A stretch of DNA of 64,000 nt from Diadophis punctatus similis (taxonomy: Eukaryota > Chordata > Lepidosauria > Squamata > Dipsadidae): contig JALIGW010000001.1 of NCBI GenBank assembly GCA_023053685.1, forward strand, positions 223,123,434 to 223,187,433. The letters are read 5' to 3'. This document shows positions 537 through 49,580 of this stretch, one piece after another. The stretch's first letter is position 1, and each line of letters starts with the position of its first letter. Made by a program: the position numbers and the translations under genes. The notes beneath the pieces are model-generated. The model made no database searches. It saw nothing but the letters and a program-made list of their open reading frames with translations, and was not told where the DNA came from.

Positions 537-3500
537 CTGAGCAGTTATATTCAGCCAGCCACATGCAGCAGGGACATTTTCCACCTGCACAGCTGTCTTG
601 TCCTGCTGCAGCTGAGCCAGTGAGGCAAGATTCTTTTCTTCCTATTAACCAGAGAAGAATCTTAGTTACCAGGCTAACCAATATAATCATTTTTCAGTAG
701 TAGTTTCACACAAAAGCAACGTATGCCAATCTATCTATTATTTAGAACCATTTTCTTCTTAGATTCCAATTAAAGTGATCCATTAATGAGTGTGTATACA
801 CACACACACACACACACACACACACACACAAACATATATATATATATATATATATATATATATATATATATATATATATATATATATATATATATATATA
901 TATATATATATATGCTTTAATTGCTACCTCACTGAAGAAACACACAGTGAAATCCAACATTTGCCCCATTCTCTTCCATCATAATTATTGTTTGCATGCC
1001 AAGAAGGACTACAGTTATAATCACTGCCTTTTTCCTAGTCCTAGGGCAAAAACAACTACAGTTGTATAATCTGCTTTAAGTATATATAATTTCAGTTTCC
1101 ATAAATCACATCAGGAAATGTGTGATTAACAATCTTTTGTCTCCCTTAAAAATATAGAATAGTAAGTGACATGCAAAGGCGTCATTCCTTTCAGACAGAA
1201 ACAAAGCGGCAGGAAGAAACAGAAGTCATACAGTTTGGAAATGCAGTTGAAAATATTATTTGCTGGCAAAAGTTTGCTTGATCTTATTTCCCCCTCCCAA
1301 TATTGGCTTTTCAATAAGTGACCATACCTTTATATTTTCTTCCTCTTCCTTAACTACAGTGAGTTCCTGGACTTTCACCAGCTTCTCTTTATCTTGATGC
1401 CTTTGGTGCCTGAAAACAAAGCTGAGTTAATACACAAATACTTGCAATGCACTGATTCTTGGAAGTAAGTTCCCCTGGGATCACTGTGAAACGGTTCCAA
1501 AAAAGTAGGTTGGGAATGCAAACTTTCCCCAAATGTGAATAGCTTTCTTGGATGTCACCTTCAAAGGAAGTAACACCATTTCAGAGTTGGTTATTTGGCT
1601 CATCATTTTCGATTTTGACTGTTTTTGTGTCTCCTGTAATTCCTTGAATTTTGACTTACCCATAGTTTCAACCTTCAGAGATTTATTTATTTATTTATTT
1701 ATTTATTTATTTATTTATTTATTTATTTATTTATTTATTTATTTATTTATGTATTATTTATGTATTTATTTATGTATTTATTTATGTATTTATGTATTTA
1801 TTTATTTATTTAATTTGCCACCCATCTTATATTGAAACAACTCTGGGCAGCTTACAGCATTAAAGAAACAAAATTATCACCCCTTTTCCTGTTTTGTACT
1901 ATTGATTTCCAGCATTTTCTTAATCTCCCCGATTGTTCTCCATTTTTCTGGACGTTCTTGAATTTTTGGCCCTTCTTCCTGAAACAAGCATAGAGAATCA
2001 ATGTCTTTCATCCATGCAAAAATACATATATACACAACGCACATACACGCGTGCACACACACACATGGAAATATATATGGAAAAACAAGAACACTTACGG
2101 TGCTATGTTGATGAGAAGTCTACACTCATGTATTTATATAAAAATATATAAAATAGTTTTTGTTGCAGTAATGTGTTAAAAACAAATTTTAGAAATGAGA
2201 TGTTACAGCTACTATTTTTCAAATCTTACCAATGTATATTGTCAGATCAAGAACAGAATATTCCACCATTCCTCAAGACACAAAGTAAATAGTGTGTCAA
2301 CTAGAAAATTCTACATTTATCCTATCTCCAAACACATGGAAATGCTTGGGCCCATGAATCTAAGATACAAAGCAATTCTAGTCAATTAAAAAAAGCTACA
2401 CTAACAATAAGTTAACTACACTAATTCATACAATCTGTTCATCCATCATCCCGTTTGGATATTGTTTAACAGCAAGCCAGCAGCAATTAAACAATTTGTG
2501 AGGCTTTCATACTTTTGATCATATAGAAATAAAAACTTTATTTCTTAGTCATGATTAAAGCCTCCTTGGAGTTTTCCTATTCTAGCTATAGCATACAGAG
2601 CCTCTTTCTCTATAATTCCATTTTACTGGAAAGTCAATATAGTGCTTACCATTTGTGGCAGTTTTGATTTTCGGACTTCTGCTTCGATTTTCTTTATAGA
2701 TATTTTTTTCTTTGCCTTTTCTTCTGTTGTTTTCTCCTCTCGCATCTGTGCAAAGAACTTGTCAAAATTCTATCTATTTTATTTTGTACTAAAGACTGGT
2801 GAGATACATTACATAACAAGTCCTGGTGGCACAGTGGTTGGAATACAGTATTGCAGGCAAACAGTCTGGAGTTTGATAGGCTCAAGGTTGACTCAACTTT
2901 CCATCCTTCTAAGATTGGTAAAATGAAGACCCAGATTGTTGGGGGCAAAATGCTGAATCTTTAAACCACCCAGAGAGTGCTGTAAAGCACTATGGGGCAA
3001 TATATAAGTCTATGTGCTATTGCTATAATAAATATAGATGTAGGACTAGAAGGGCATTAAAAGCTAAAATAAAGTCTCCTTCAAATTGAATTCAACTCTA
3101 GGTCATTTTATGGATATTCCCGTGTGATTTTCTTGGTATGAAAAGGAGTCACAGGTCAAGGTTTGTTTTCTGTCAATCCAGAGTGCATAATGTAAAATAA
3201 GGGATTTAAATTACAGGAAAGAAATTCTGAATGAATATTAGAAAAACATTCTAACAGTAAGAACAAACTGAAATTGGAACTGATTATCACAACAAATGAT
3301 GGGTTCCCGTTCCATGGATGCATTCAAGCATAGCATAAGTAGAAAGACCCAACAAAATGTACCAGCCGCTTCTTTGTTAGATTTCTGGCTTAATATGATG
3401 TTTGAACATTCCATACTAAAAGACAACTGTTCATATGTGAAGACAGTCATGAAAACAGTCTGTTGTCAGGCCATTTTTTACCTTGTCATTTCTTTCATCA

Positions 3501-49580: not shown

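Follow-up and report, generated by a model that had tools for sequence, protein, structure and literature searches.

Two neighbouring INCENP genes in a snake genome

The subject of this analysis is a 64,000-nucleotide stretch of the 1.78 Gb genome of the snake Diadophis punctatus similis (C1:223123434-223187433, hereafter the window), which holds two intact genes for the inner centromere protein INCENP. They are neighbours in head-to-head orientation, and they are paralogues kept since before the living sauropsids diverged. INCENP positions Aurora B, a kinase of cell division; its CEN box binds Survivin and Borealin, and its IN box activates Aurora B. Gene models were obtained by mapping two Pantherophis guttatus proteins onto the window and then setting the splice sites. 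We call the plus-strand copy INCENP-A and the minus-strand copy INCENP-B (A and B below); the names are our own and unrelated to the INCENP-A and INCENP-B of Plasmodium.

A runs from start codon to stop codon at 25569-49580 (+). B starts at 19597 and runs down to 537 within the window (-), with two further exons to the left of base 1. The start codons, one on each strand, are separated by 5,972 bases. Each gene has 17 coding exons and no internal stops, and the predicted proteins are 856 (A) and 834 (B) residues long. A script check found AG and GT at all splice junctions within the window; for B, the final two acceptors and a single donor were read by eye. All 16 intron phases are identical in A and B (2,2,1,2,0,1,2,0,0,2,0,0,2,0,0,1), and this shared series and exon structure indicate duplication at the DNA level rather than retroposition. 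The original prediction, made from the letters of the window, had described open frames with matching phases across 16 and 18 exons; frames and phases stand, and the exon counts do not. It had also proposed reading the IN-box exons of the minus copy left of base 1, and these proved to encode an intact IN box. A pattern scan for the GDFV/CSFV microexon upstream of exon 10 gave no match in A or B.

The features, from the gene models unless stated otherwise, are as follows.

25569..25705, plus: INCENP-A coding exon 1, ATG at 25569, diverged CEN box that together with exon 2 matches human INCENP chains
26229..26336, plus: INCENP-A exon 2, LMPKTPSQK motif and basic stretch
31864..32621, plus: INCENP-A exon 3, with the HP1-motif position (IPLIEI) near 32072-32089
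34795-34843, 35539-35572, 36890-36986, 39303-39360, 41818-41932, plus: INCENP-A exons 4-8
42021..42155, plus: INCENP-A exon 9, VVRPFKTFLHTVQKNQ motif
44389-44498, 44588-44708, 45704-45826, 46463-46617, 46809-46923, 47047-47145, plus: INCENP-A exons 10-15, single alpha-helix
48121-48271, 49375-49580, plus: INCENP-A exons 16-17, IN box and stop codon, with AATAAA about 100 bases beyond
19461..19597, minus: INCENP-B coding exon 1, ATG at 19597, canonical CEN box (PF12178, 6.4e-15)
17407..17523, minus: INCENP-B exon 2, LMPKTPSQK motif
15329..16044, minus: INCENP-B exon 3, without HP1 motif
13654-13606, 10250-10220, 7874-7757, 7410-7317, 5677-5542, minus: INCENP-B exons 4-8
5348..5467, minus: INCENP-B exon 9, diverged IIRPFKNFFQTIQKNQ motif
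3932-3823, 3602-3482, minus: INCENP-B exons 10-11, conserved N-terminal half of the single alpha-helix
2745-2650, 1978-1881, 1409-1328, 641-537, minus: INCENP-B exons 12-15, eroded C-terminal half of the helix, with prolines
6511-6352 and 5497-5283 of L002 (left of base 1), minus: last two exons of INCENP-B, with intact IN box and stop codon, and a polyA signal beyond
23150..23850, no strand: CpG-rich stretch between the genes (base composition, observed/expected about 1), candidate promoter region, separate or shared
about 20100-20900, no strand: weaker CpG-rich stretch between the genes (base composition), possible promoter

Among the matches listed, the closest database relative of A is an 'inner centromere protein' of Pantherophis guttatus (85% identity over 62% of the query), and that of B an 'inner centromere protein-like' of the same species (92% over 56%). 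Other snakes have annotated close orthologues of both genes, which excludes chance. The databases label B, among the matches listed, 'inner centromere protein-like' or 'A-like', so the pair is already present in them under automatic names. No paper on a vertebrate INCENP paralogue was found in a search of the open-access literature; the words 'second INCENP' in PMC4248066 concern a second residue of INCENP, not a second gene.

Age and distribution of the pair

A tree was built from 62 proteins, 60 of the 282 fetched plus the two models from the window (25 A, 26 B, 7 amphibian and 4 mammalian rows). The A and B clades have ultrafast bootstrap and SH-aLRT supports of 99/98 and 100/100, and each includes geckos, a skink, lacertoids, anguimorphs, iguanians, snakes, turtles, crocodilians and birds. 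The presence of squamates, turtles, crocodiles and birds in both clades dates the duplication to before the living sauropsids. The split of lizards from birds and turtles dates back about 280 million years. When low-complexity helix columns were removed, the A clade kept a support of 88 and the B clade 100. A tree of the IN box only has too few columns (99), with A held together (69) and B not, and was set aside. The original prediction of true paralogues with uneven, partly complementary divergence is borne out, and the duplication is far older and broader than it proposed, predating the sampled sauropsids. Nor are the copies recent or assembly duplicates, as each is nearest its Pantherophis orthologue (91% and 93% over the kept columns).

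A and B are found on equally long contigs in at least 40 species (21 squamates, 6 turtles, 1 crocodile and 12 birds). The count was made by hand from the match lists and covers species with both types and a listed contig; the best BLAST score bore out the assigned type for each of the 80 proteins. In Alligator mississippiensis, A and B are listed on unequally long contigs. The best 120 matches to B include no passerine, parrot or hummingbird, and A proteins of passerines and hummingbirds are listed. Pfam recognises both CEN and IN boxes in 23/23 B members of the alignment, and the IN-box family PF03941 is found in 23/23 A and 23/23 B members.

Two further cases deserve mention. Discoglossus pictus has two INCENP copies (P0232, P0244) that are mutual sisters in the tree, apparently through an independent duplication. 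An Anolis carolinensis protein (P0097) seemingly combines B-type exons ~8-11 with A-type sequence, namely a repeated exon 3 and an IN box; it represents either an additional, rearranged locus or a faulty gene model.

The CEN box is rewritten in squamate INCENP-A

The CEN box of B is canonical. Its PF12178 (INCENP_N) match of 66.2 bits (cut-off 25, E 6.4e-15) is the only one in the genome, and exons 1 and 2 together match human INCENP chains with a best E of 7.6e-25. A has no PF12178 match genome-wide, and its Pantherophis orthologue scores 23.3 bits, below the same cut-off of 25. At E <=0.001, PF12178 is found in 22/23 A members of the alignment, and exons 1-2 of the snake A match human INCENP chains (2qfa_C, E 0.0075; 6yih_C, 1.2e-15). 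This agrees with the earlier description of a canonical CEN-box opening in the minus copy and a rewritten N-terminal part of the box in the plus copy, and the figure of 14/46 identical residues at the start of the two proteins was reproduced. Leucine 12 (L12) is lost in 25/25 A, and is L in 25/26 B and 11/11 outgroup rows. The position is E in 13/13 squamate A, and P (9), V (2) or S (1) in the other 12. W33 is retained in 25/25 A.

Identity to the 11 outgroup proteins was compared using 12 squamate rows per type, the window's own copies excluded. The CEN box of squamate A is 13 points less similar than that of B (95% column bootstrap -23 to -3.6). For turtles the difference of A relative to B is -0.1 in the CEN box and +21.5 in the helix; for birds the values are +5.2, indistinguishable from zero, and +15.2. 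On a fixed topology, path lengths were measured from the common ancestor of A and B, with squamate values averaged over 13 A and 13 B rows. For the CEN box they are 1.35 (A) and 0.55 (B) in squamates, and 0.57 and 0.49 in turtles. Rewriting of the A CEN box is thus strongest in squamates and the divergence of the helix old, so that change in the CEN box of A and in the helix of B amounts to partly complementary divergence in squamates.

Half of the helix is eroded and the HP1 motif nearly always missing in INCENP-B

A long single alpha-helix lies between the CEN and IN boxes. Judged by sequence, A has all of it, with about 230 residues almost free of proline, and B has its N-terminal half only. 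The exon of 41 codons for which 30/41 identity had been noted holds up, at 30/40 by our boundaries. The shortened and irregular helix of the minus copy after 2745 is likewise recovered: from exon 12 on, B has 120 residues with 4 prolines, and A 155 with none. Across the alignment, the C-terminal half of the single alpha-helix (SAH-C) is 116-122 residues long in the 13 B rows of squamates, against 131-168 in the 13 B rows from other groups; in A the median length is 158 residues in squamates and 158.5 in others. SAH-C prolines occur in 26/26 B rows (mean 4.2 in squamates, 5.2 in others), 6/25 A rows (0.15 and 0.33) and 6/11 outgroup rows (0.64). AlphaFold2 models of the Pantherophis proteins place helices at 505-599 and 622-643 in B (P0121), and at 495-607 and 615-728 in A (P0001).

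In squamates, the N-terminal half-helix has nearly equal path lengths of 0.23 (A) and 0.22 (B), and the C-terminal one unequal lengths of 0.50 and 1.13. B also changes faster in exon 3 (A 0.92, B 1.33) and in exons 4-8 (0.98 and 1.47). Erosion of the C-terminal half, common to the B proteins of squamates, turtles and birds, is apparently old.

The HP1 motif (PxVx[IVL]) is present in 22/25 A and in 2/26 B, those of chicken and quail. It occurs in 1/7 amphibians and 3/4 mammals, and so is not universal among the outgroups. In human INCENP, the motif and the helix that follows it are both needed for stable HP1 binding (PMC11116813; papers are cited by PMC number and for the excerpts available). 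The E180 position of that helix is E in 23/25 A and, as aligned, in 7/26 B, although the residue aligned there in squamate B means little because the motif is missing. The IN box is intact in both types: the positions of human W845, F881 and TSS, discussed in excerpts of PMC4248066 and PMC7115952, are retained in 25/25 A and 26/26 B, the window's copies included.

Copy number, a retrocopy and expression

Processed INCENP sequence also lies on another contig (G000 C112:190291075-190291925; L001 1038-1888). Its parent is A (826/861 identical, 10 gap positions). It is intronless, truncated at the 5' end and without a CEN box; it begins late in exon 12 and continues through exon 17, with the exons joined at the junctions of the A gene model. 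Homology stops 14 bases past an AATAAA, the repeat AATACTATTATTTT stands on both flanks, and its open frame includes a stretch that is read in a different frame. Retrocopies are inherited only if they form in the germ line, so this one indicates that A made spliced mRNA there. For B, we found two proteins on short contigs, one of 484 residues on 2,021 bases and nearest to a gecko (81% to Paroedura), the other of 469 residues on 1,495 bases and nearest to a skink (78% to Tiliqua). The matching exons 6-17 occupy 12,592 bases in the window's snake, and the short-contig sequences may be spliced transcripts or retrocopies.

A third INCENP gene was sought in the genome and rejected, as IN-box, INCENP_N and B queries yield only A, B and the retrocopy. 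A genome-wide IN-box model scored the retrocopy as its sole match and missed the exon-split IN boxes of A and B; the B IN box as query found A, B and the retrocopy only; and of the 8 matches to the N-terminal 506 residues of B, one is exon 3 of A and the other seven are parts of B. The retrocopy does not qualify as a third gene, being intronless, starting inside exon 12 and having no CEN box.

We also considered two Borealins for the two INCENPs. At the sensitivity of PF10512, there is one locus at C274:416200-416361 (L008), with pieces on separate short open frames that we read as intron-containing, and one Borealin-like copy at C112:130976097-130976369 (L007), with a 388-residue open frame that we read as a retrocopy. 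With the sensitivity of that model no second Borealin gene was found, and the idea was dropped.

Surroundings of the gene pair

Beside the pair lies a uteroglobin/secretoglobin exon (61513-61788, plus strand, 32.3 bits), and a second at 53560-53844 (minus strand) scores 24.1 bits, just below the cut-off of 24.8. Fragments of a retrotransposon-like frame (..KQCRLAGPRGRAFSV..) occur in the window at ~21690-21870, 50200-50450, 51590-51780 and 63700-63960, and at L003 7174-7818; they include the window's longest inverted pair. Open frames in the flanks left and right of the window (L003, L004) are mostly repeat-like.

Interpretation

So, what might two INCENP genes be for? The explanation that we favour, and consider probable, is that of an ancient paralogue pair, kept since its origin, in which A is the long form and B a short-leash, HP1-uncoupled passenger-complex scaffold alongside it. 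The DNA-level duplication, its copies now inverted, occurred before the living sauropsids diverged, with both copies retained since. Both would encode scaffolds of the chromosomal passenger complex, with a CEN box for Survivin and Borealin and an intact IN box for Aurora B. A would be the long form characterised in chicken, usually with the HP1-binding motif. The N-terminal half-helix that B has by nature suggests a passenger complex holding Aurora B near its chromatin anchor, where the kinase would act there and not on the outer kinetochore; this complex would be mostly uncoupled from HP1 and used in cells that need it besides A. The gene pair, its age, the open frames and the losses of domains are direct findings; that the complexes form, differ in reach and serve particular cells is our inference. 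In excerpts of PMC4248066 and PMC7115952, INCENP is essential in chicken DT40 cells and its loss has severe effects; as a Gallus B (P0191) is listed all the same, B does not replace A there.

Several observations weigh against a division of this kind. The DT40 result also fits a B that is silent or inactive in such cells. The HP1 partition is imperfect: 6/7 amphibian rows are without the motif's proline, chicken and quail B still have PMVKV, and the window's own A has the weakened form PLIEI with D at the E180 position. B has changed far more than A in exon 9 (squamate path lengths A 0.41, B 1.31) and somewhat more in the IN box (squamates 0.46 and 0.57, birds 0.23 and 0.78). In bird B rows (P0180, P0190, P0191, P0196, P0197, P0209), the second half of the CEN box is altered, for example to EVEEQGLRMLD in chicken; the change is absent from the B rows of squamates, turtles and crocodilians. 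Mean confidence of the AlphaFold2 models of A and B is low (45.3 and 51.2).

A and B could differ mainly in where they are made, with A the general mitotic scaffold, B that of the germ line or early embryo, and the sequence differences secondary drift under lighter load. This is possible, if doubtful. It would account for the essentiality of INCENP in DT40 cells despite the listed second chicken gene, and for the faster evolution of B in disordered parts, exon 9 and SAH-C. However, the retrocopy implies that A too must be transcribed in the germ line, and loss of a regular SAH-C and of the HP1 motif in nearly all B rows, across deep lineages, fits an early change of function better than slow drift. 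Decay of one copy, which the original prediction had raised, fares much worse: both genes are intact and ancient and retain the IN-box residues checked. We regard a minus copy that is a pseudogene or decaying duplicate as highly improbable. Its shortened helix and the faster change of its linkers, exon 9 and SAH-C are what decay would leave, but its 17 exons are intact with GT-AG splice sites and an intact IN box, and B orthologues with both Pfam boxes occur in the sampled squamates, turtles, crocodiles and birds.

Another alternative places the division in the CEN box: squamate A, with its box rewritten, would bind Survivin and Borealin weakly or differently and work mainly off the inner centromere, leaving B as the centromere-anchored form. 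The long CEN path of squamate A, set against near equality in turtles, and the uniform E at L12 in squamate A, where B and the outgroups have L, speak for it. We think it unlikely, because L12 is also lost in other A rows, including those of birds, whose A type works in DT40 cells; W33 is kept throughout A; and exons 1-2 of the window's A still match human INCENP chains, so that binding may simply have co-evolved. The duplication itself might be older than amniotes, with one copy lost in mammals. Relative to the best tree, joining the mammals to A costs only 6.68 log units (AU p 0.0605), and joining them to B 6.49 (AU p 0.0709), which leaves some room for such an origin. But the best tree groups A and B apart from the 4 mammals (SH-aLRT 92) and leaves the 7 amphibian rows outside as one clade, in which the Discoglossus copies are each other's sisters, and we judge an origin before the amniotes, with mammalian loss, to be improbable.

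The short-leash reading of B can be carried further. Sauropsids might rely on a long-leash, HP1-linked A to correct errors in somatic cells and on a short-leash, HP1-free B in meiosis or cleavage, having duplicated the scaffold where eutherians duplicated the kinase (Aurora C), with partner binding further divided in squamates through the rewritten CEN box of A. As a whole this scenario is speculative and, in our estimate, rather unlikely to be correct.

Comparison with known systems

Work on chicken DT40 cells underlies much of our knowledge of vertebrate INCENP (e.g. PMC4571873, PMC7115952, as excerpted), yet a second chicken gene (P0191) is listed, as one is for the remaining groups of sauropsids in the sample. 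The chicken INCENP of those papers is of type A. Its class I and class II forms are set apart by 38 residues close to the helix end (PMC7115952, as excerpted), as are quail A isoforms, and the 213 residues of the published helix agree with A: the guinea fowl and quail proteins are proline-free before residues 712 and 709, whereas Gallus B has prolines at 601, 691 and 704 within that stretch. The positions of the STD residues do not decide the chicken type, since Gallus B also has them at 749/752/753. No chicken A row is in the tree, where quail and other birds stand in. The snake pair differs from the chicken classes: its A has a rewritten start of the CEN box, and B comes from a gene of its own, of which the excerpts of those papers make no mention. 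Should any of the cell types used express B, the knockout and replacement experiments done in them would have to be reinterpreted.

An engineered INCENP with the N-terminal half of the helix sustains DT40 proliferation and, in HeLa cells, is less effective in restoring DSN1 phosphorylation at the outer kinetochore (PMC4571873, as excerpted). B has that half of the helix by nature. Unlike the laboratory construct, it is nearly always without the HP1 motif too, and its C-terminal half is replaced by 116-168 residues of its own rather than cleanly deleted. B thus offers a natural experiment in leash length, with two scaffolds per genome, one of them with the helix roughly halved and the HP1 motif almost always missing, and the pair makes the relation of leash length to the substrate range of Aurora B testable by comparison. 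In the sauropsids examined, part of the core machinery of chromosome segregation seems to come in two versions.

Paralogous INCENPs have been described in Plasmodium and Toxoplasma, where there are likewise two scaffolds per genome, derived by duplication and both with an IN box (PMC12946202, as excerpted). The alveolate duplications are independent, and the excerpts of that paper describe the Plasmodium complex as being without Borealin and Survivin and its INCENPs as being without the RTSS site. In the sauropsid pair, by contrast, both the CEN box and TSS are retained, and the snake has a Borealin gene. Aurora C, which is absent in marsupials and monotremes (PMC8470780, as excerpted), provides a parallel closer to home. 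Aurora B and Aurora C of eutherian mammals are also a duplicated subunit of the passenger complex in one amniote lineage, although there the kinase was duplicated and here the scaffold.

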